Shown: piece by piece, positions 4,220 through 19,242 of the stretch | Numbering within the stretch: the stretch's first letter is position 1 | Layout of the letters: the number at the start of each line of letters is the position of its first letter | NCBI RefSeq assembly: GCF_900104765.1 | Contig: NZ_LT629737.1 | Span: 992,001 to 1,056,000 of the forward strand | Direction: 5' to 3' | DNA from: Gillisia sp. Hel1_33_143 | GTDB lineage: Bacteria; Bacteroidota; Bacteroidia; Flavobacteriales; Flavobacteriaceae | Length of the DNA stretch: 64,000 nucleotides | Notes under the pieces: model-generated | What the model was told of the DNA's origin: nothing | What the model saw: the letters and a program-made list of their open reading frames with translations, nothing else | Database searches by the model: none | Position numbers and translations under genes: made by a program

Positions 4220-7174
4220 ATGAAATTATTCCAATTTTACACCTTATTACTTTTAACTCTTTGCATAGGGCTGAATTCTTTTGCTCAGGAAGCTAAAGTT
4301 AGAACTCCAGAATTTGTTCAATTTAAACACAGTGTCTGGGTAGATTCTATAATGAAAACTTTAACTCCAGATGATCGTATTGCTCAGATGTTAATGGTAG
4401 CAGCCTATTCAAATAGGGGTACGGAGCATAAAGAAGAAATTCTAAAACTCATTAAAGAACAAAAGATTGGTGGAGTTATCTTTTTTCAAGGCGGTCCGGT
4501 AAGGCAAGTAGCGTTGATGAATGAATATCAAGCAGCCTCGAAAGTTCCTTTAATAGGAGCTATTGATGCAGAATGGGGATTAGGAATGCGGTTAGATAGT
4601 ACCATTAGTTACCCCTTCCAGATGCCTATGGGTGCTATGAAAAATGATACACTTATCTATAAAATGGGAACCCAGATAGCCGAGCAAATTAAAAGGGTTG
4701 GGTTGCACATCAACTTTGCTCCAGATGTAGATGTTAATAACAATCCCGATAATCCAGTGATTAATTACAGGTCTTTTGGAGAGAACAAATATAAAGTAGC
4801 AGAAAAAGGGATTGCTTATATGAACGGACTTCAAGATTCGGGAGTCTTAGCTACAGCAAAGCATTTTCCGGGACATGGAGATACGGCTACAGATTCGCAT
4901 TACGCTCTTCCGCAGATAAATCATAACAGAACACGCTTAGATACTCTAGAACTTTACCCTTTCCGCGAAATTGTAAACGCGGGAATTGGGGGAGTTATGG
5001 TAGCGCATTTAGATATTCCGGTTTTAGATTCTACGGGAGTTCCTTCCACCTTATCTAAACCTATAATTTCAGGATTATTGAAACAGGAATTGAATTTTGG
5101 CGGATTGATAGTTACAGATGCCATGAATATGAAAGGAGTAACTACCGGACATGAACCTGGAATAGTAGATAAAGATGCGGTTTTGGCAGGGAATGATCTT
5201 TTAGAATTTACTGAAGATATCCCTATGGCAATTTCAGAAATTAGAAAAGCAATCAATCAGGGTTTAATAACTCAAAAACAAATTGATGAAAGATGTAGAA
5301 AGATCCTGGCGGTGAAACAATGGGTTGGACTGAATAAATATCAACCAATTTCAACAGAAAACATTATTGAAGATCTTGATAAGCCGGAATATCATTTATT
5401 AAACAGGCAGCTTACGGAGGCTAGCTTAACGATTCTTAAAAATAATAAAGATCTATTGCCACTTAAAAGGTTAGATACTCTAAAGATTGCTGCTATTTCT
5501 ATAGGTAAAGAAGAGCGTTCTAAATTTCAGGAAACCTTAGGGTTATATACAAATATCACCAATTTTAATATTTCAAGAGATGCCACTTCAGAAGATATTT
5601 CAGCAATAGAGAAGGAGTTAGAAAATTTTAATTTAATTATTGCTGCTGTGCATGATCATAGCAAATTCCCTAGAAATGGTTTTGATCTTTCCGAAGAAGG
5701 AAAACAGTTTATTAGTAAAATTTCTTCAGAAGAAAATGTGATCATGACATTTTTTAAGAATCCTTATGTAATTAATGATATTGATCTAATTGAAAAATCT
5801 TCTGCTTTAATTTTAGGGTATCAGGATACTGATAATTCTGAGGATCTGGCGGCACAATTAATTTTTGGTGGGATAGGAGCAAATGGGAGATTACCGGTAA
5901 GTATTGGAGACAAATTTAAAGAAGGGGATGGATTGGATGTTGAAGGCAGAATTCGATTTAAATATACGCTGCCGGAAGATGCAGGAATGGATTCTCAAAT
6001 TCTATATAAAAAAATAGATTCTTTAATGCAAGAGTCTATAGATGCTAAAGCGATTCCTGGAGGTCAGATCTTAGTAGCAAAAGGAATGAAGGTGGTAATG
6101 CACAAAGCTTATGGCTATCATGAATATAGCGATACTATTAAAGTTAAAATTTCTGACATCTATGATCTTGCTTCGGTTACCAAAGTTTCTTCTGCTTTAG
6201 CGGCATTGATGAAATTAAAAGATGAAGGTAAGTTTGATCTAAATGCAGGAATAGATGCGTATTTACCATATTTCAAAAATTCTAATAAAGCAGGAATTCC
6301 GTTTAGACAGATCTTAGCACACCAAGCTGGTTTTAAGCCTTGGATTCCTTACTGGAAAAATACGCTTAGAAAGAATGGAAGTTACAAATGGAATACGTTT
6401 AAGAAAGATTCTTCTAAAAGATATCCTATAAAAGTTTCAGAAAATATGTGGCTATTTAAAGATTATAGAGATAAGATATACAGAGAGATCAAGAATTCGC
6501 CATTAGAGAAAGACCGTAAGTATCTATATTCCGGATTGGCATTTTATCTGTTGCCGGGAATTGTGGAGAATATTACCAAAGAAGATTATATAGATTATTT
6601 AAATGAGCATTTTTATGCTCCTCTTGGTGCAACAACTTTAACCTATAAGCCATCAGATAAATTTTCTGGAGATAGAATTGTTCCTACAGAGCATGATTAT
6701 TTATTCAGAAACAAACCAATACATGGGAGTGTGCATGATGAAGGCGCTATTATGATGGGAGGAGTCTCTGCAAATGCCGGATTATTTGCCAACGCTAATG
6801 ATCTTGCTAAACTATTGCAGATGTATCTGAATGGAGGAAATTATGGAGGAGTTCAATATATTTCCACAGAAACCTTAAAAGAATTTACCAGTTATCAATT
6901 CCCGGAAAATGATAACCGCAGAGGCTTAGGATTTGATAAGCCGAGTTTGGGAGATAGAAAACCAGATGGCAATGCAGCATTAAGTGCTAGTAAGGAGAGT
7001 TATGGGCATACCGGCTTTACCGGAATTATGGTATGGATGGATCCAAAAACAGATCTGCTCTACCTATTTCTTTCTAATAGAGTTTTGCCAAGCAGAGAAA
7101 ACACCAGACTTTACCAAATGAATACCAGAACTAAGATCCAGCAGGTACTTTATGATGCTATAAATATTAATTAG
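4220..7174 (+). CDS. GH3 beta-N-acetylhexosaminidase (NagZ-type) fused to a serine beta-lactamase-fold hydrolase
   Basis: A secreted two-domain enzyme. The start at 4220 gives a clear signal peptide (MKLFQFYTLLLLTLCIGLNSFAQ region); an upstream in-frame start at 4193 would add nine residues before it. Residues about 35-380 are a GH3 domain with the NagZ signature KHFPGHGD at about 214-221 and the nucleophile context TDAMNMKG near residue 300. A GH3 C-terminal-like region follows, then from about residue 595 a beta-lactamase/esterase-like domain with SVTK (SxxK), YSG and HTG motifs. The fusion is a known Bacteroidota architecture. It probably removes GlcNAc from peptidoglycan or chitin-like fragments in the periplasm or at the cell surface, while the second half could act on a muropeptide or ester. 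The YSG motif differs from the common YxN, so beta-lactam hydrolysis should not be assumed. Confidence 0.9.
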   Translation: MKLFQFYTLLLLTLCIGLNSFAQEAKVRTPEFVQFKHSVWVDSIMKTLTPDDRIAQMLMVAAYSNRGTEHKEEILKLIKEQKIGGVIFFQGGPVRQVALMNEYQAASKVPLIGAIDAEWGLGMRLDSTISYPFQMPMGAMKNDTLIYKMGTQIAEQIKRVGLHINFAPDVDVNNNPDNPVINYRSFGENKYKVAEKGIAYMNGLQDSGVLATAKHFPGHGDTATDSHYALPQINHNRTRLDTLELYPFREIVNAGIGGVMVAHLDIPVLDSTGVPSTLSKPIISGLLKQELNFGGLIVTDAMNMKGVTTGHEPGIVDKDAVLAGNDLLEFTEDIPMAISEIRKAINQGLITQKQIDERCRKILAVKQWVGLNKYQPISTENIIEDLDKPEYHLLNRQLTEASLTILKNNKDLLPLKRLDTLKIAAISIGKEERSKFQETLGLYTNITNFNISRDATSEDISAIEKELENFNLIIAAVHDHSKFPRNGFDLSEEGKQFISKISSEENVIMTFFKNPYVINDIDLIEKSSALILGYQDTDNSEDLAAQLIFGGIGANGRLPVSIGDKFKEGDGLDVEGRIRFKYTLPEDAGMDSQILYKKIDSLMQESIDAKAIPGGQILVAKGMKVVMHKAYGYHEYSDTIKVKISDIYDLASVTKVSSALAALMKLKDEGKFDLNAGIDAYLPYFKNSNKAGIPFRQILAHQAGFKPWIPYWKNTLRKNGSYKWNTFKKDSSKRYPIKVSENMWLFKDYRDKIYREIKNSPLEKDRKYLYSGLAFYLLPGIVENITKEDYIDYLNEHFYAPLGATTLTYKPSDKFSGDRIVPTEHDYLFRNKPIHGSVHDEGAIMMGGVSANAGLFANANDLAKLLQMYLNGGNYGGVQYISTETLKEFTSYQFPENDNRRGLGFDKPSLGDRKPDGNAALSASKESYGHTGFTGIMVWMDPKTDLLYLFLSNRVLPSRENTRLYQMNTRTKIQQVLYDAININ

Positions 7175-12993: not shown

Positions 12994-13067
12994 GGTCCTA
13001 TAGCTCAGCTGGTTAGAGCACCTGACTCATAATCAGGTGGTCCCTGGTTCGAGTCCAGGTGGGACCA
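12994..13067 (+). tRNA. tRNA with CAU anticodon (Ile2 or elongator Met)
   Basis: A complete cloverleaf. The acceptor stem is GGTCCTA/TGGGACC, the anticodon stem CCTGA/TCAGG carries loop CTCATAA (anticodon CAT at 13028-13030), and the T-arm contains GGTTCGAGTCC. The 3' CCA is not encoded. A CAU anticodon is shared by elongator Met and by the lysidine-modified Ile tRNA, and I cannot separate these with certainty. The last 12 bases are the left core site of an integrated element, so insertion left the tRNA intact. Confidence 0.95.
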
Positions 13068-13068
13068 C
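13056..13068 (+). repeat. Left core attachment site (attL)
   Basis: CAGGTGGGACCAC; its first 12 bases are the 3' end of the CAU tRNA. It is identical to 19230-19242 in the same orientation. Confidence 0.88.
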
Positions 13069-13118: not shown

Positions 13119-13123
13119 ATTTT

Positions 13124-13151
13124 AGGGGCTGAATAAGGGGCGGAATTAATT
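13124..13151 (+). repeat. Left-end paired repeats, probable integrase/Xis arm sites
   Basis: Two near-copies 13 bp apart: AGGGGCTGAA from 13124 and GGGGCGGAATTAATT from 13137. The same motif pair occurs in the same orientation inside the right end (19089-19116). Their position 55-80 bp from the core suits arm-type sites of a tyrosine integrase. GC-rich words of this kind stand out against the AT-rich surroundings. Confidence 0.55.
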
Positions 13152-13220: not shown

Positions 13221-14729
13221 ATGAATATCAAATCTACTCCTAAGTTAGTGAAACTTAAAAATTTGATCTTAGATAAAGATAACCCAAGGTTTGCTGAATT
13301 ATATAGCGGAAGTGATAAGGAGGAAGATCTGATTAATTATTTATTATATAATGAATCGGCCGAAGATGTGGCAAAATCAATCTTTGAAGCAGATGAATTT
13401 TATCCTGATCGCCCATTGTGGGTTTTAGAAGATGGTAAAAATTTTTTAGTTAAAGATGGTAATAGGAGGTGTGCATCAGTTAAAGCTCTAAATCACCCCT
13501 TAAAATACGGTTTGGATGTGGCTTTTAAAATGAATATAAAAGAATTACCCGTATTAGTATATAAGGATAAGTCTGATTTAGATGAAAGGATTCGTCAAGA
13601 ACATACAAGTAGCTTATTTAAACAATGGGGAAGAATTGCAAAAGCTATTGAAGTTTTCCGATTATATAAAACTGGAACGTCAATTGAATCAATGAGAGAT
13701 TTTGATTCCTCGCCAAATGAACTTATTAAATTAGCAAGCTTTTATTATGAAGCAGTAAAGTTATCTTCAGAAGATTTTAAAAAATTACTTCGAAGTGGAA
13801 AGGGTAAATCTGGAGGAAAGACAATTGTTTTTGAAAGACTTTTCAAATATAGAAAAGAATGCGGTTATACTTTTAAAAGAGATTTCGAAATTGATATCAA
13901 GGATAAAACCTACTTTGAATCTTACATTAAATCAATGGTGGCTTATTTAAAAGATAATCCTGAGACTTCATCAAGAACAATAGATAGAATGAAAGGCGAA
14001 TTCTTGAAAGAGTTAAAGCCTTATGGTTTCCCGCCAGTATCGTCAACTAATCCTAGCACAGGAGGTACTTCAACTTCAAGTGCTTCTACTACAACTTCAG
14101 GATCAAGTTCGCAAAGCAATTCTGGAGCCGCCTCTAGCAATGATGGAAAAGCAAGCCCAATACCTTCCAGTTCAACACCAAGTTCTGGAACATCTTCAAC
14201 GTCCAATCCTTCTACTTCAAATCCTTCAACTTCTAATAGTGGTAGAAAAAGTGTGAAACACAAACCAATTTATACACGAAAAAAGATACCTGCACCTCTG
14301 GAAAACTTAATTAAAGAATGCTATAATTTAGATCAGAATAATTTTCCAAATGCAAAAACTGCAATGAGTAGAATTACATTTGAATGTACTCTTAAATTTA
14401 TAGTTGAAAATACAGATAAAGGAAACGGTAAGGCATTGAAAACTTCAAACCATTTTCAAGACGTGTATTTCAAAAAAGGAAAACCTACTCTATACACAGA
14501 TTTTGATAAATTAAAATCTAAATTTACAGAGTTAATTAAAGATACAGGTACTAAGAAAGCATTTGAAGATTTTAATTTACAGAATTCTCATCAGATCATT
14601 CACAATTACCATGTTAGAGCCGTTCCTGCAAATGCCAAAGGATTGTGTGATAATTTAATAGTGCTTATTGAGTTCATGCTACAAGAAGAATCTGATCTCT
14701 TACAATCCTTGGATCAATCAAAAATTTAA
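13221..14729 (+). CDS. ParB/sulfiredoxin-fold protein with Ser/Thr-rich linker and helical C-terminal domain
   Basis: A 502-residue protein in three parts. Residues about 1-130 form a ParB-like N-terminal domain: LKNLILDKDNPRF opens it and VKDGNRR at 77-83 matches the ParB box. Residues 131-272 are mainly helical. Residues about 273-341 are low-complexity Ser/Thr/Gly/Asn, like a flexible tether. Residues about 345-502 are a helical domain with SHQIIHNYHVRAVPANAKGL near its end, a layout reminiscent of HEPN-like or Abi-type helical domains; that resemblance is only by eye. The stop is two bases before the methyltransferase ATG, so the two are surely co-translated. ParB-fold domains can bind DNA, hydrolyse CTP or cut DNA; which applies here is unknown. 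It lacks a ParA partner, which argues against a partition role. Confidence 0.75.
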   Translation: MNIKSTPKLVKLKNLILDKDNPRFAELYSGSDKEEDLINYLLYNESAEDVAKSIFEADEFYPDRPLWVLEDGKNFLVKDGNRRCASVKALNHPLKYGLDVAFKMNIKELPVLVYKDKSDLDERIRQEHTSSLFKQWGRIAKAIEVFRLYKTGTSIESMRDFDSSPNELIKLASFYYEAVKLSSEDFKKLLRSGKGKSGGKTIVFERLFKYRKECGYTFKRDFEIDIKDKTYFESYIKSMVAYLKDNPETSSRTIDRMKGEFLKELKPYGFPPVSSTNPSTGGTSTSSASTTTSGSSSQSNSGAASSNDGKASPIPSSSTPSSGTSSTSNPSTSNPSTSNSGRKSVKHKPIYTRKKIPAPLENLIKECYNLDQNNFPNAKTAMSRITFECTLKFIVENTDKGNGKALKTSNHFQDVYFKKGKPTLYTDFDKLKSKFTELIKDTGTKKAFEDFNLQNSHQIIHNYHVRAVPANAKGLCDNLIVLIEFMLQEESDLLQSLDQSKI

Positions 14730-14731
14730 TA

Positions 14732-15631
14732 ATGTTATATTCTCCCTTAAGATATCCTGGCGGAAAAAATAAAATAGCTCCATTTCTAGCTAAGATTTGT
14801 GTTGATAATAATATAAATGGGCATTATGTTGAGCCTTATTCCGGAGGGGCTGCAGTGGGCTTATTTCTGCTTTTTGAGAATTTCGTTGAGAGGATAACAA
14901 TTAATGATAAGGACAGATCTGTTTATGCATTTTGGTTTTGTGTATTGAATAAAACTAATGCTCTTTGTAAATTAATTGAAGAAACCGATATAACAATTGA
15001 GCAATGGAGAAAGCAACGCAAAATTCAACTAATAAAAGATAAAGCAGATATTTTAGAGTTAGGCTTTTCAACCTTTTTTATGAATAGAACTAACCGCTCT
15101 GGTATTATTTCGGCAGGTCCAATTGGGGGAATGGAGCAAATCGGTCAATATAAAATTGATTGTAGATTTAATAAAGAAGATTTAATCCAAAGGATCAGAT
15201 TAATTGCTTCTAAAAAAAGTAAAATAAAATTATATAAAAAGGATGCTATAAAATTGGTGCATAAAATTCAAAATGAATCGACTGATAATAATATAATATT
15301 TTACTTTGACCCTCCATATTTTTTAAAAGCTAACTCACTTTATCTTAATCATTATTTGCCTGAAAATCATAAAGACGTAAGTCAGGTTATAAAATCAATT
15401 ACGGATATTAACTGGATTGTTTCATATGATAATGTCTCCGAAATAAGAAAGCTTTATGATGATTGTGCTAAAAAAGAATTTGAATTCTACCATACTGCTT
15501 ACGAAATAAGACAGGGTAAAGAAATATTATTTTTTAGTCCTAATTTAATAATGCCTGAAATTGAAGATTGGAACCCGCTTAATTTTAAATATAAGAAAAA
15601 TTCAAAAAAAAGGGACATAATTTATATTTAG
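14732..15631 (+). CDS. D12-class (Dam-like) adenine-specific DNA methyltransferase
   Basis: Transfers a methyl group from SAM to N6 of adenine in DNA. The 299-residue protein has PLRYPGGK (5-12) and YVEPYSGGAAV (32-42) for SAM binding, FFMNRTNRSGI (115-125), and the catalytic DPPY at 193-196, in the order of the Dam/D12 group. No restriction endonuclease is recognisable beside it; its only partner is the ParB-fold gene two bases upstream. It may be an orphan methylase that protects the element, or the modification half of a system whose other half is the ParB-fold protein. The last four bases overlap the end of the convergent Rep gene. The recognition sequence cannot be told from sequence. 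Confidence 0.92.
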   Translation: MLYSPLRYPGGKNKIAPFLAKICVDNNINGHYVEPYSGGAAVGLFLLFENFVERITINDKDRSVYAFWFCVLNKTNALCKLIEETDITIEQWRKQRKIQLIKDKADILELGFSTFFMNRTNRSGIISAGPIGGMEQIGQYKIDCRFNKEDLIQRIRLIASKKSKIKLYKKDAIKLVHKIQNESTDNNIIFYFDPPYFLKANSLYLNHYLPENHKDVSQVIKSITDINWIVSYDNVSEIRKLYDDCAKKEFEFYHTAYEIRQGKEILFFSPNLIMPEIEDWNPLNFKYKKNSKKRDIIYI

Positions 15632-16467
15632 CCTATAGCTTTATTTTTTTCATCTAATCTTTTGTAAAGAGGTAATGTCTGTCTATTTAGATCAATCATT
15701 TTAATATTTAGAAATGGTCTTTCTATATGATCCTTCACTTCAAATTCTTTAAGAATAGCATTTAGACGCACGAAATTCTCGGTAAACTCTGTAGTAGTGT
15801 AAAAGTCTGTGTAAAGTTCAGAAACACGCTTAGAACAGTTCCAGACTTGACATTTAAACTTTGCGTCATTCTTAGTAACATACTTTGTAACATAAGAAGC
15901 TATAGACCTAATATTATTTGAGTTTAATTGTTTCACATCAAAAGCAGAAGAAGGTTTGTAATTTTTCTTTCTAGGCTTGATTCCGTTTTTAAGTTGAAGA
16001 TCAATCCAGTAATTCCACCACTTGTCTATTTTCCAATATTTATTTGTGATCATGTGGAAATGTACATTCCCCTTAAAAGCATCATTTTTATTTTGACGTT
16101 CTGCAACCCATACGTATTGAAAATCTTCACTTCTTTTCTTAGCGTTATCTATAAACTTGCGTAAGAGATTTATCGCTTCTTCATCTGTAACCTTATTTAG
16201 AAATGTGAGAGTAACAAAATTTAACCGCTTGTAACATCTAGCAAAGCATGTAATCTTCTTTCGGATCTTTTGTTTTGATCTTCTGGAAAGTGTTCTAAGT
16301 TTAATTTCTTTCTTTTCTTCATTTACTATTTTCTTTTTAATTGGTTTCTTATCGGGATCTGGTTTTTTGCGTTGTAAAGCAGAACCAGCAAATTCTTCTT
16401 TGGGAATTACGCCGAACTGTGTTGTTGAGAATCCGACGCTTATTCCATATGTATTTTTGACTATCAT
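15628..16467 (-). CDS. HUH-family replication initiation protein (Y2 type)
   Basis: Probable rolling-circle replication initiator of the element. The 279 residues contain all three HUH motifs: FVTLTF at 84-89 (motif 1), VHFHM at 135-139 with the His-x-His metal site, and YVTKYVTK at 192-199 with two tyrosines four positions apart, the Y2 layout of phage phiX174 GpA and microvirus VP4 proteins. The N-terminal 70 residues are very lysine-rich. It lies 95 bp downstream of the small 72-residue gene on the same strand. A Y2 Rep in an element that also has a tyrosine integrase suggests an excised circle that replicates through single-stranded DNA; a mobilisation role is the main alternative. Confidence 0.82.
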   Translation of the reverse strand: MIVKNTYGISVGFSTTQFGVIPKEEFAGSALQRKKPDPDKKPIKKKIVNEEKKEIKLRTLSRRSKQKIRKKITCFARCYKRLNFVTLTFLNKVTDEEAINLLRKFIDNAKKRSEDFQYVWVAERQNKNDAFKGNVHFHMITNKYWKIDKWWNYWIDLQLKNGIKPRKKNYKPSSAFDVKQLNSNNIRSIASYVTKYVTKNDAKFKCQVWNCSKRVSELYTDFYTTTEFTENFVRLNAILKEFEVKDHIERPFLNIKMIDLNRQTLPLYKRLDEKNKAIG

Positions 16468-16562: not shown

Positions 16563-16781
16563 CTACTCTTGAATATGTGCAGGAATGAAACTATCTCTAT
16601 AAAATCTTCGAATGTACTTTGCGGATCTTCTGTTGTAAACATTCATATACTTCCAAGTAGAGTGGCTCTTATGAAGAAACATAGAGAAGCCGTTTAATTT
16701 ATCTACGTATGTCCATTTCTTTGGTTTAGTGCCATCTTCAAAATAGACTATAACTGAATAATCATTCTTCTTTTTTAACAT
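16563..16781 (-). CDS. Small basic protein of unknown function, 72 aa
   Basis: I do not recognise this family. The 72-residue product is basic and aromatic-rich (KKWTYVDKLNGFSMFLHKS, then RRSAKYIRRFYRDSF) and has no membrane segment. Its ATG overlaps the end of the excisionase-like gene by seven bases, so it is probably translationally coupled. The operon position between Xis-like and Rep suggests a role in replication or its control; that is inference. Confidence 0.6.
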   Translation of the reverse strand: MLKKKNDYSVIVYFEDGTKPKKWTYVDKLNGFSMFLHKSHSTWKYMNVYNRRSAKYIRRFYRDSFIPAHIQE

Positions 16782-17074
16782 GATACACCTCCTCTTGATT
16801 TTAAAGTTTTAATCTGAGTAAGTGCTTGAATAACTTCTTCCTGTTTATAAAGAATTCTGTTACCAATACGATAACCTACGATAGAACCAGTTTTAGTCCA
16901 TTCGTGAAGTGTTGGAAGTGAAATGCAAAGCGTTTTTGCTGTTTCTTTTCGAGTAAGTAGTTTTAGAGATTTTGGTTCTCCAAAGTTTAAAGAATTGAGT
17001 TTTCTTTCTAGAACTTCTTCAACGACTTTTTTTATGTCGGATAGTTCCAATGATGTTAATAATACTTTTGTCAT
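16775..17074 (-). CDS. Excisionase-like helix-turn-helix protein (HTH_17/MerR type)
   Basis: A 99-residue DNA-binding protein. Residues about 38-90 form a winged HTH of the excisionase/BldC group: LLTRKETAKTLCISLPTLHEWTKTGSI followed by VGYRIGNRILYKQEEV. Such proteins beside tyrosine integrases in Bacteroidota elements usually direct excision and may regulate element genes. It lies 81 bp downstream of the 223-residue gene and overlaps the next small gene. Confidence 0.82.
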   Translation of the reverse strand: MTKVLLTSLELSDIKKVVEEVLERKLNSLNFGEPKSLKLLTRKETAKTLCISLPTLHEWTKTGSIVGYRIGNRILYKQEEVIQALTQIKTLKSRGGVSC

Positions 17075-17155: not shown

Positions 17156-17827
17156 TTATTTTATTTTTTCTATATCTTCTTTTATTTTGTCTGCTATTTC
17201 TTCAAAACCCGCATTATCAAATAGTTGTAAAACTTTTTCTAAATTATCTTGATTTCTTACTTCATCATTATTTCCGTATAAAAAAGGGATTTGTTTTCTA
17301 GTGTCCCCAAAATTTTGCCCGATTATTGGTTCTAAAATTTTAGCAGATTTTATGTTATCATATCTTCTTAGGTCTAATCCTAAATAATGTAATGCTAGTA
17401 ATTTTTGCTTGTGAGTAAGAGTTGATTTCTTTGAAGTTTTTTGTGGAGTGTTGTCCAATTCTATTAACCACTTATAGTATTCTGAAAATTCAAAAGCCTG
17501 TTTAGATATATGTTTTTTTATATTCAAAGATTCTTCTGTGTCAATAGTAGAATTTGAAATTGGGAATTTTCCAGTAGTCAGAAAACTATGAACCGCTTCA
17601 GTAAATAGAGGTCTCAACATATCGCTAATAGATAGTTTAAAAATTTGAGTTTGATTTGCTTTTTTTAGATGAACTAGTCCATTCCTTTTAATTTTGGGAG
17701 TTGGAGAATAATCTAAATAATTATTTATTTCCCTTAATTCATTCTCGATTAAAAAATTCTTATTTATAGTTTTTTCTAATGCTGAATTGAAATCGTTTTG
17801 CAGTTCAGTAAGTGTTGCTAAGTTCAT
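17156..17827 (-). CDS. Element-encoded protein of unknown function, 223 aa
   Basis: No known domain is recognised. The N-terminal 90 residues look helical (LNDFNSALEKTINKNFLIENEL region). The C-terminal half contains KQKLLALHYLGLDLRRYDN and then GDTRKQIPFLYGNNDEVRNQDNL, a block that looks like a conserved domain. Its ATG overlaps the integrase stop codon (TAATG), so the two are translationally coupled. Proteins of similar size are often found between integrase and excisionase genes in flavobacterial elements; the function is unknown. Confidence 0.6.
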   Translation of the reverse strand: MNLATLTELQNDFNSALEKTINKNFLIENELREINNYLDYSPTPKIKRNGLVHLKKANQTQIFKLSISDMLRPLFTEAVHSFLTTGKFPISNSTIDTEESLNIKKHISKQAFEFSEYYKWLIELDNTPQKTSKKSTLTHKQKLLALHYLGLDLRRYDNIKSAKILEPIIGQNFGDTRKQIPFLYGNNDEVRNQDNLEKVLQLFDNAGFEEIADKIKEDIEKIK

Positions 17828-19062
17828 TAATTAAAGAATGGATGATTAACTAGTTTATCTGCGTTTTGTTCTTGAGTGATCTTTATATATTGCATGAATG
17901 ATCTTTCAGACCTATGTCCTGTAATCTTCATTATTGAGATTGTTGGTACATCAGCTAAATATAAATTTGTTGCAAAACTTCTTCTCGCAGTATGAGTGGA
18001 AACAAGATCAAATTTTTTAATTGGAGTTTTCTCTACTTTTCCACCTCTTGTAATAGTGGTTTCAACATTTTCTTTTAATCCAGCTAATGAGGCGACATCT
18101 TTTAAATATCTATTCATAACTTGATTAGTATATGCTTTTGGAAGTTCATTATCGTATTTCTTTAAAATCTTTTTGACTGTTTTATGTAAAGGAATAGAAA
18201 CTCTTTCTCCTGTTTTTTGAGTTCGCACTTGAATGATAGATTTTTCAGAAATTATATTCTCAGGTTTAATTTGAGTGAAATCAGAAAAACGTAAACCAGT
18301 ATAACATCCAATTAAAAACAAATCTCTTACTTTATCAAGTCTAGGACTAGCCGATAAATCCAATTTCTCAAAACAATCTAATTCTTTGATCGAAAGATAT
18401 ATTGAATCTGATTCTTCTCTTAGCGTTTTAAACTTTCTTTTCTTGAATTCAAGATTTGTATTATAACCTCTATCTGTAGCCTCATTCAAGAATGATTTAA
18501 GCGTTTTAATATGTTTTCCAACAGTATTAGCTGCAAGCTTATTTTCAATAGATAGATAAGCGATGTATTGATTATAAAATTCAAGATTTATGGAATGAAA
18601 GTCAATCTCTTTATTTAAGTAGCTAGAATATTTTTTTAGGTAGTTATAAGTGGTAGTATAAACTTTTACCGTTCCTTCTTTTTTATGCGCCTTACTTTCT
18701 TCTATGTAATCTTCAATAAATTTTAAAAGTGTTGTTCTTTTAGCTTGTAATATATTGTCAGATAAGAAAGCTTCTAATTCTTCTTTTAAATTAGTATTAT
18801 TTGGTTGAGTACCGTCATTAAGTAATTTTCTAAAAGCTGTTTTAATTCCGTTTTCAATTTTGTTTAATCGAGTATTGAATTCAGGATATTCAGGAAATTG
18901 TTTTGTTTCCTTGACTCTTTGAGCTGGATCATTCCAATATTTAGGAAGAATCTTTTCGCCTGTAGAGTATTTGAATCTTTTATAATTATAATAAAAGTTC
19001 AAGTAAATTAAAGTTTCCTTTTTGGAGTTTGGTTCTTTAAGTTTGAAATTAGCTTTTCCCAT
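17827..19062 (-). CDS. Tyrosine recombinase / integrase
   Basis: Catalyses site-specific insertion at the tRNA 3' end. The 411 residues comprise an N-terminal arm-binding domain (about 1-90), a SAM-like core-binding domain (about 105-205, with TLLKFIEDYIEESK) and a catalytic domain with all key residues: R258 (GCYTGLRFSD), K283, H357 and R360 (HTARRS), H383 (GHRSE) and the nucleophile Y392. The layout matches Bacteroidota conjugative-transposon-type integrases. It reads inward from the right end, 168 bp from attR, as is usual for such elements. The catalytic motifs are intact. Confidence 0.95.
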   Translation of the reverse strand: MGKANFKLKEPNSKKETLIYLNFYYNYKRFKYSTGEKILPKYWNDPAQRVKETKQFPEYPEFNTRLNKIENGIKTAFRKLLNDGTQPNNTNLKEELEAFLSDNILQAKRTTLLKFIEDYIEESKAHKKEGTVKVYTTTYNYLKKYSSYLNKEIDFHSINLEFYNQYIAYLSIENKLAANTVGKHIKTLKSFLNEATDRGYNTNLEFKKRKFKTLREESDSIYLSIKELDCFEKLDLSASPRLDKVRDLFLIGCYTGLRFSDFTQIKPENIISEKSIIQVRTQKTGERVSIPLHKTVKKILKKYDNELPKAYTNQVMNRYLKDVASLAGLKENVETTITRGGKVEKTPIKKFDLVSTHTARRSFATNLYLADVPTISIMKITGHRSERSFMQYIKITQEQNADKLVNHPFFN

Positions 19063-19088
19063 GTCCCAAATATATTATAAAAAGCCTT

Positions 19089-19116
19089 AGGGGCGGAGAG
19101 AGGGGCGGAATAAATT
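19089..19116 (+). repeat. Right-end paired repeats, probable integrase/Xis arm sites
   Basis: AGGGGCGGAGAG (19089-19100) is followed directly by AGGGGCGGAATAAATT (19101-19116). AGGGGCGGAAT is identical to 13136-13146 near the left end. The pair sits between the integrase start and attR. Confidence 0.55.
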
Positions 19117-19229: not shown

Positions 19230-19242
19230 CAGGTGGGACCAC
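19230..19242 (+). repeat. Right core attachment site (attR)
   Basis: A perfect 13-bp copy of CAGGTGGGACCAC, the tRNA 3' end, without the rest of a tRNA. It marks the right edge of the element. Confidence 0.88.

Follow-up and report, generated by a model that had tools for sequence, protein, structure and literature searches.

What does a gene for a ParB-fold protein do two bases upstream of a gene for a Dam-like adenine methyltransferase on a small mobile element? The question is raised by a locus of Gillisia sp. Hel1_33_143 (contig NZ_LT629737.1, positions 992,001 to 1,056,000), here called the window, a stretch of 64,000 nucleotides to which all coordinates refer; loci compared with it carry L numbers. 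The two genes, termed A (13221-14729, + strand, 502 amino acids (AA)) and B (14732-15631, + strand, 299 AA), are separated by a gap of 2 base pairs (bp; 14729/14732), and the other four genes of the element are all on the - strand. A sequence-only reading had placed the pair at 13221-15631, against the orientation of the replication and integration genes, which the open reading frames (ORFs) bear out. It had also proposed a coupled module of a ParB-fold protein and a D12 methyltransferase on a mobile element as a candidate for defence; this proposal stands, but not as a novelty, as the PD-lambda-5 system is already described. The pair is probably an anti-phage module of the PD-lambda-5 type that a small element in tRNA-Met carries as cargo, and it probably works as a combination of restriction-modification (RM) and abortive infection.

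Identity and adjacency of the pair

The assignment of both proteins is based on PADLOC, supplemented by Pfam for B and by a phage protein family and a structure model for A. B matches the model PD-Lambda-5_B with an E-value of 1.4e-114 (residues 2-281 on 4-282 of 291), and its only Pfam match is the D12 class of N6-adenine DNA methyltransferases (PF02086, 1.2e-17). Of the 22 PADLOC models matched by A at E <= 0.1, 21 are PD-Lambda-5_A models (best 3.6e-18), with best stretches that mostly span only the N- or the C-terminal part of the protein. A further match of A is phrog_9592, a phage family of unknown function (8.1e-22, residues 10-489), and Pfam returned nothing for A at E <= 0.1. The pair thus shows three features of PD-lambda-5, namely a match to the B model, matches to A models and adjacent genes on the same strand in a predicted operon. 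By sequence, it is a known, conserved kind of defence system: a predicted new PD-lambda-5 member that is divergent and sits on a small integrative element.

PD-lambda-5 consists of two genes that act against phages; it came to light through a functional selection in E. coli, where protection was shown, as described in excerpts of PMC9519451 (Vassallo et al. 2022). According to the passages of PMC10482375 that deal with it, its source is a P2-like prophage and the system tends to be prophage-borne. The window pair resembles it in having two adjacent genes that both match PADLOC models and in being located on a mobile element. It differs in its carrier, a tRNA-Met element of about 6.2 kilobases (kb) with a rolling-circle-type replication protein (Rep) instead of the P2-like prophage of those passages, and in A, which matches the PD-Lambda-5_A models only moderately and belongs to c1, a subtype of 17 proteins in the compared set. 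In the excerpted literature on the system, no mechanism for the family was met.

B was said to carry all catalytic motifs of its class, and YPGGK (residues 8-12), EPYSGG (34-39) and DPPY (193-196) are indeed present. YPGGK and DPP[YF] occur in all 87 methyltransferases compared, window included, and EP[YF].GG in 84 of them.

The pairing was surveyed with B as the seed, covering the best 80 of 148 genome-contig loci, 9 viral-contig loci, L011, L012 and the window, i.e. 92 methyltransferase ORFs. Close upstream in 87 of them lies an ORF on the same strand that encodes 150 AA or more; the gap is -58 to 68 bp, with a median of 1 bp, in the 82 loci checked. Nine loci were dropped before counting: L120-L123, with methyltransferases 28-33% identical, L049, L055 and L087 at contig edges, and L107 and L114 with a broken or short methyltransferase frame. 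Among these, L049 has a fragment of an A-like ParB-type gene (ParB-A) at the edge, L055 has a fragment of an OLD-type gene, and L107 has a ParB-A fragment 1.7 kb upstream; ParB-A was not found at L114. In the remaining 83 loci, window included, B is directly preceded by a ParB-type gene in 75 cases and by an OLD-type gene in 8. Since five of these eight have ParB-A one gene further upstream, 80 of the 83 have it at most one gene away. The model PDLC04009 was matched at 1e-3 in 73/83 loci, and three of the 75 ParB-type genes are short (L038, 366 AA; L044, 321 AA; L101, 221 AA, where a second piece lies upstream). Such adjacency is not plausibly due to chance, and the search for conserved adjacency suggested by the sequence-only reading is strongly positive among close relatives of B.

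The association was also followed beyond these relatives. Using B, tblastn returned 48 records, 20 from phages and 28 from plasmids, none of which reaches 60% identity. For general D12 methylases (L014-L020; seven loci with 60-107 bits to the B model, of 20 genomes matched), neither ParB-A nor an OLD-type gene was found within about 3.7 kb with the models used here. A search seeded with A matched 9/295 genomes of the class, its own included, and 0/14 control genomes. Among the ten A loci other than its own, B is the neighbour in four of the five with a long A protein (450 AA or more), the exception being L124, with B about 2 kb off in the same genome (L134). Short ParB proteins of 365-401 AA without the C-terminal domain, five from this search and seven fetched earlier, adjoin B in only 2/12 cases. 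Therefore, full-length A, including residues 345-502, is the form that accompanies B.

Short ParB-fold genes were also seen beside other genes. At L003 (865-3251), a 369-AA ParB-fold protein adjoins a 421-AA ATPase, HerA-like by eye, and there is no methylase in the locus. Downstream of the short ParB-fold gene in three P2-like phages (L007, L008, L009) and a plasmid (L010) lies a gene without a known function, about 300-370 AA long, whose products share the pattern GDxGxDxxA; after it, the three phages carry a methylase on the opposite strand, which is of the C5 type by Pfam in Wphi. The gp96-type partner in the P2-like phages had been considered by eye as a PD-(D/E)XK nuclease and was dropped, as neither Pfam nor PDB sequences supported this.

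Domains of protein A

The structure model of A (predicted local distance difference test (pLDDT) 81.5, predicted template-modelling (TM) score 0.51) is folded up to about residue 268; residues 275-343 form a disordered linker and residues 345-502 are a helical domain. In a Foldseek search, 8 of the 50 listed matches were at E <= 0.001, and all of these were chains of ParB or Noc, with probability 1.00, E-values of 1.8e-4 to 6.7e-4 and modest TM-scores of 0.32-0.43 by target length. A weak sequence match to the ParB 4umk (E=0.0018) aligns GNRR of A with the G-RR of ParB. The ParB fold that had been proposed for A is thus backed by structure and, weakly, by sequence. Two motifs stand out in this domain, namely N-P-R at residues 21-23 (13281-13289, + strand), with N21 and R23 in 71/71 and P22 in 50/71 ParB-type proteins with a letter there, and GNRR at residues 80-83 (13458-13469, + strand), corresponding to G-x-RR of ParB and present in 72/72 with a letter there. 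W136 is likewise invariant (73/73). We take these residues to correspond to nucleotide-pocket boxes of ParB proteins, an assignment partly visible for GNRR in the alignment with 4umk and otherwise presumed. The fold and the motifs suggest that A may bind and hydrolyse CTP and act as a sliding clamp.

Both the ParB fold found by Foldseek and the location on a mobile element would also suit a protein for partition or plasmid incompatibility, with B as an unrelated orphan regulatory methylase. A shares with ParB partition proteins the predicted nucleotide-binding fold and G-x-RR; unlike with these, family scans of the six element proteins gave no match to ParA, as the sequence-only reading had stated. 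In addition, A adjoins B in 75/83 loci and the two genes match a system whose role in defence has been tested, which makes this explanation highly improbable.

The linker (14043-14249, + strand, residues 275-343) has a pLDDT under 50 and consists of 58% serine and threonine over residues 271-341. A Ser/Thr-rich tether had been noted and is present in the window protein, but it is not conserved within the subtype, where the linkers of the 17 proteins, window included, comprise 24-84 residues with 12-58% serine and threonine. It is best read as a plain spacer.

The C-terminal domain (14253-14726, + strand) was likewise expected to be helical, and its isolated model is so with a pLDDT of 92.7. 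It is described as HEPN-like from a weak Foldseek signal. R384 is found in 74/75, E or D at position 388 in 74/75 and H461 in 75/75 A proteins. The exception in the first two columns is L099, where the H in the third is taken as chance. In the A protein of this locus (4574-5986), a DpnII-MboI nuclease domain (PF18742, 7.7e-38, residues 319-458) replaces the HEPN-like domain, and a PD-lambda-5-type methyltransferase adjoins it; L099 is the only one of the 83 upstream partners with this domain. Because of this replacement, the C-terminal part of A is likely an effector slot. Among the 50 of 115 PDB matches of the C-terminal domain shown by Foldseek, the HEPN-type structures 2q00 (rank 2, with the highest probability, 0.84), 8xeh, 1wwp, 7ae6 and 8xdj occur beside many unrelated helical proteins, and the viral fold library BFVD gave no match at E <= 0.001. 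In its excerpted text, PMC3710099 lists 2q00 and 1wwp as HEPN and describes the family of 2q00 (PaREP1) as lacking the R and keeping the H. PD-lambda-5 is counted among the HEPN-domain systems in the relevant passage of PMC11811056.

The sequence-only reading had also found no recognisable restriction partner for the methyltransferase. This has to be revised since A itself occupies the restriction position and its C-terminal domain is swapped for a DpnII-type nuclease in one relative. The likeness to type II RM systems with D12 or Dam-type methyltransferases, such as DpnII/MboI, therefore consists of an adenine methyltransferase with catalytic motifs, a neighbour in the restriction position and the fusion of a ParB part to DpnII-MboI at L099; unlike in these systems, no restriction endonuclease family was matched in window A at E <= 0.1 in Pfam. 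With the type IV system GmrSD, a combination of ParB and HNH in the passages of PMC12839542 concerned, A shares a ParB-superfamily N-terminal domain in a defence protein. It differs in that window A has no match to GmrSD_N (DUF262) or HNH and is accompanied by a methylase; GmrSD_N was touched at E <= 0.01 by only 2/83 upstream partners. The HEPN-RM associations in the excerpts of PMC3710099 resemble the window pair in combining a ParB-fold part, a HEPN-like C-terminal domain and a methylase in one operon, whereas the motif Rx4-6H was not found in window A and the support for a HEPN fold is weak.

These comparisons bear on a plain two-gene RM system, in which A would be a methylation-sensitive DNA nuclease that cuts in its ParB/Srx-like domain and uses the C-terminal domain for dimerisation or regulation. 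The excerpted text of PMC12839542 refers to the nicking of DNA by ParB/Srx proteins, the pocket residues of A are invariant, and A is located where a type II restriction gene would be. However, Foldseek groups the domain with nucleotide-binding ParB and Noc and with no known nuclease, a DpnII-type nuclease domain at the C-terminus of the L099 protein would be redundant, and the C-terminal triad is conserved as strongly as the pocket. This explanation is regarded as unlikely.

GATC was considered as the target of B from the DpnII fusion and was set aside. The E. coli test host lacks mrr in the excerpts of PMC9519451, and this would fit a site other than that of Dam.

Exchange of A behind B and the proposed working

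The window and L011/L012 have methyltransferases that are 69% identical and A proteins that are 23% identical. This pattern was quantified for those 77 of the 80 ParB-A loci whose A is 400 AA or longer, which yield 2926 pairs that are not independent of each other. Pairwise identity has a median of 61% among the B proteins and of 27% among the A proteins, with a Spearman correlation of 0.26. When the B proteins are 80-90% identical (35 pairs), A is below 30% in 63% of the pairs; at 90% or above (7 pairs), this is the case in only one (14%; L039/L040). Despite the low median identity of A, NxR, GNRR and the R/E/H triad are near-invariant.

On the methyltransferase tree, the 12 partner types require 38 changes, compared to 53.7 for shuffled labels (as low in 0/200) and a possible minimum of 11, with support under 80 on 25 of the 76 inner branches; taken alone, the starred branches force no more than 2-4 changes in each large type, of which there are four. 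An earlier count of 40 changes over 10 groups was superseded after the OLD loci had been recoded. The partner types thus cluster on the tree, yet they have changed many times. In four pairs of loci compared by blastn, homology begins at most 6 bases from the start codon of the methyltransferase and stops no earlier than 16 bases before and no later than about 107 bases past its end, and none was found in the upstream A or OLD genes; the pair L039/L040 shows additionally a few short matches elsewhere. No description of this exchange was met in the excerpted PD-lambda-5 literature, although it may be in print elsewhere.

OLD-type genes take part in these arrangements in several ways. In five loci (L035, L040, L066, L079, L092), an OLD-type ATPase gene lies between A and B in a three-gene operon, and the best PADLOC match of the OLD-type proteins of L035 and L040 is the model ATPase-Toprim_I-B. 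The order OLD-A-B occurs in L057 and L113, and A-B-OLD occurs in the near-copies L047, L048 and L050 and in L049; L054 contains an OLD-type fragment and L077 an OLD-type gene on the opposite strand. Only L059, L070 and L118 of the 83 have OLD-B without ParB-A in the sequence covered. A general replacement of ParB-A by the OLD-type gene in all eight OLD-adjacent loci of the 83 was ruled out, as ParB-A is still present in five of them. Replacement happens too, however, as three of five distant B loci have an OLD-type gene and no ParB-A. At L093 (4599-8241), a single methyltransferase gene lies between two ParB-A genes that differ in subtype, with c6 upstream of it and c1 downstream.

The working proposed here is built on what was established above, i.e. 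the family identity, the conserved pairing, the domain layout, the invariant motifs and the exchange of A behind a conserved B; nucleotide binding, methylation sensing, effector chemistry and trigger are its inferred parts. B would methylate adenines at its target sites and thereby mark the resident DNA. A, with a nucleotide presumably bound in its ParB/Noc-like N-terminal domain, would engage DNA without the mark or react when marking is overwhelmed or blocked. It would then release or activate the HEPN-like C-terminal effector, by which the infection would be stopped. The outcome would be a compact combination of RM and abortive infection.

Several observations weigh against this reading. 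The C-terminal domain has no PDB match at E <= 0.001 in Foldseek, where rank 1 is a de novo designed protein, and no Pfam match better than E 0.007. Window A lacks Rx4-6H, the canonical motif of HEPN RNases, which is present in only 5/75 A proteins, so membership among the canonical HEPN RNases was rejected and the idea of an RNase could be wrong. The sole PADLOC A model that spans nearly the whole of window A scores just 2.3e-9. Finally, among the five distant B loci from the 48 phage and plasmid records, ParB-A is present in L171 and L172, while L170, L173 and L174 have an upstream OLD-type gene and no ParB-A in the sequence covered. Because three of these five have only an OLD-type partner, confidence in the combined RM and abortive working was lowered slightly and that in a guard function of A was raised by an even smaller step. 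L170, L173 and L174 are more distant B-type methyltransferases from phages and a plasmid. At L171 (1449-2998, Vibrio phage ValB1MD-2), A is split into two consecutive ORFs, one covering the N-terminal and the other the C-terminal half of a single PADLOC model, and an OLD-type gene lies on the other strand.

As a guard in the manner of a toxin-antitoxin system, A would be a toxin silenced by B or its methylation and freed when a phage overcomes the methyltransferase, be it by inhibition, competition or dilution, comparable to PrrC with a blocked RM system. The excerpts of PMC3710099 propose that HEPN domains tied to RM systems work in this way, and they list ParB-HEPN fusions as well as HEPN genes that share an operon with genes for a DNA methylase and a nuclease of the ParB type. 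The frequent change of A subtypes behind B argues against a co-evolved contact between the two proteins, though not against sensing of the methyl mark. This explanation is considered even less likely than plain RM.

The domain exchange at L099 and the frequent change of A subtypes are also the reason why the methyl mark is favoured over a protein contact between A and B as the off-signal in the combined working. A more specific version, about as unlikely as plain RM, is that A would be a methylation-gated ParB-type clamp that closes on unmethylated B sites and brings or releases an interchangeable C-terminal effector at the invading DNA. B would then be a portable self-mark shared by many A subtypes and OLD-type effectors, and one methylation mark would serve a large set of exchangeable weapons. 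A modification module that joins different nuclease partners is also described for Dnd phosphorothioation with its decoupled restriction modules in excerpts of PMC10853773. The mark in the window would instead be a base methylation by a single predicted D12 enzyme, and the comparison concerns this organisation of the modules.

The carrying element and the family pattern

The mobile element has a size of about 6.2 kb and is inserted in a tRNA-Met(CAT) gene (12994-13068, + strand, ARAGORN). The 3' end of this gene forms the attL core CAGGTGGGACCAC (13056-13068), which returns as a 13-bp repeat in the attR core CAGGTGGGACCAC (19230-19242); the 11-mer GGTGGGACCAC of this core has two occurrences in the window with both strands searched. 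Just inside the att repeats, one imperfect repeat lies at each element end (13122-13151 and 19087-19116, both + strand, 83% identity), which are candidate integrase arm sites. Downstream of B, all on the - strand, follow the Rep gene (15628-16467; PF23343, 2.6e-13; phrog_3419, 8.5e-17), a gene for an HTH_17 or excisionase-like protein (16775-17074; Pfam 6.8e-8), a gene for a backbone protein of 223 AA and unknown function (17156-17827) and a tyrosine integrase gene (17827-19062; PF00589, 7.4e-14). The backbone protein is kept in three sister elements with 32-45% identity to its counterparts in L162, L163 and L164, and it matched no family above the family's own cut-off in the library scans of the element proteins.

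A search with the Rep protein matched 7/149 genomes, its own included. Two complete sister elements are located at the same tRNA-Met, L162 (4493-11185; integrase 84% and Rep 88% identical) and L163 (3230-10485; 69% and 73%); the other matches are L164 on a short contig and three remnants. L165 and L176 are remnants of the Rep gene, broken or short, in two congeners. In the slot of A and B, L162 carries a gene for a 652-AA protein matching PADLOC Old (1.1e-35) and L163 carries four other genes, of which one matches PglW weakly (1.7e-7) and the remaining three match nothing in PADLOC; one of the four is NERD-like by eye. At L175, from a further relative, mce and, by eye, ribE lie close together with two other genes between them and without Rep, integrase, A or B, and a piece resembling the left end of the element persists beside its tRNA. 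The other genes in the slot of the sister elements and the lack of element genes at L175 support the reading of A and B as cargo. It is possible that this slot of the tRNA-Met elements is a cargo slot for defence genes.

The combination of a conserved DNA mark, presumably set by B, with strongly divergent putative sensor-effectors, represented by A, is a pattern of the family that matters more than the locus itself. Should the mark be what the subtypes have in common, B from one subtype would be expected to keep A of another in check. The exchange pattern thereby makes the mechanism of PD-lambda-5 testable, with NxR/GNRR and R384, E388 and H461 as the residues of first interest.

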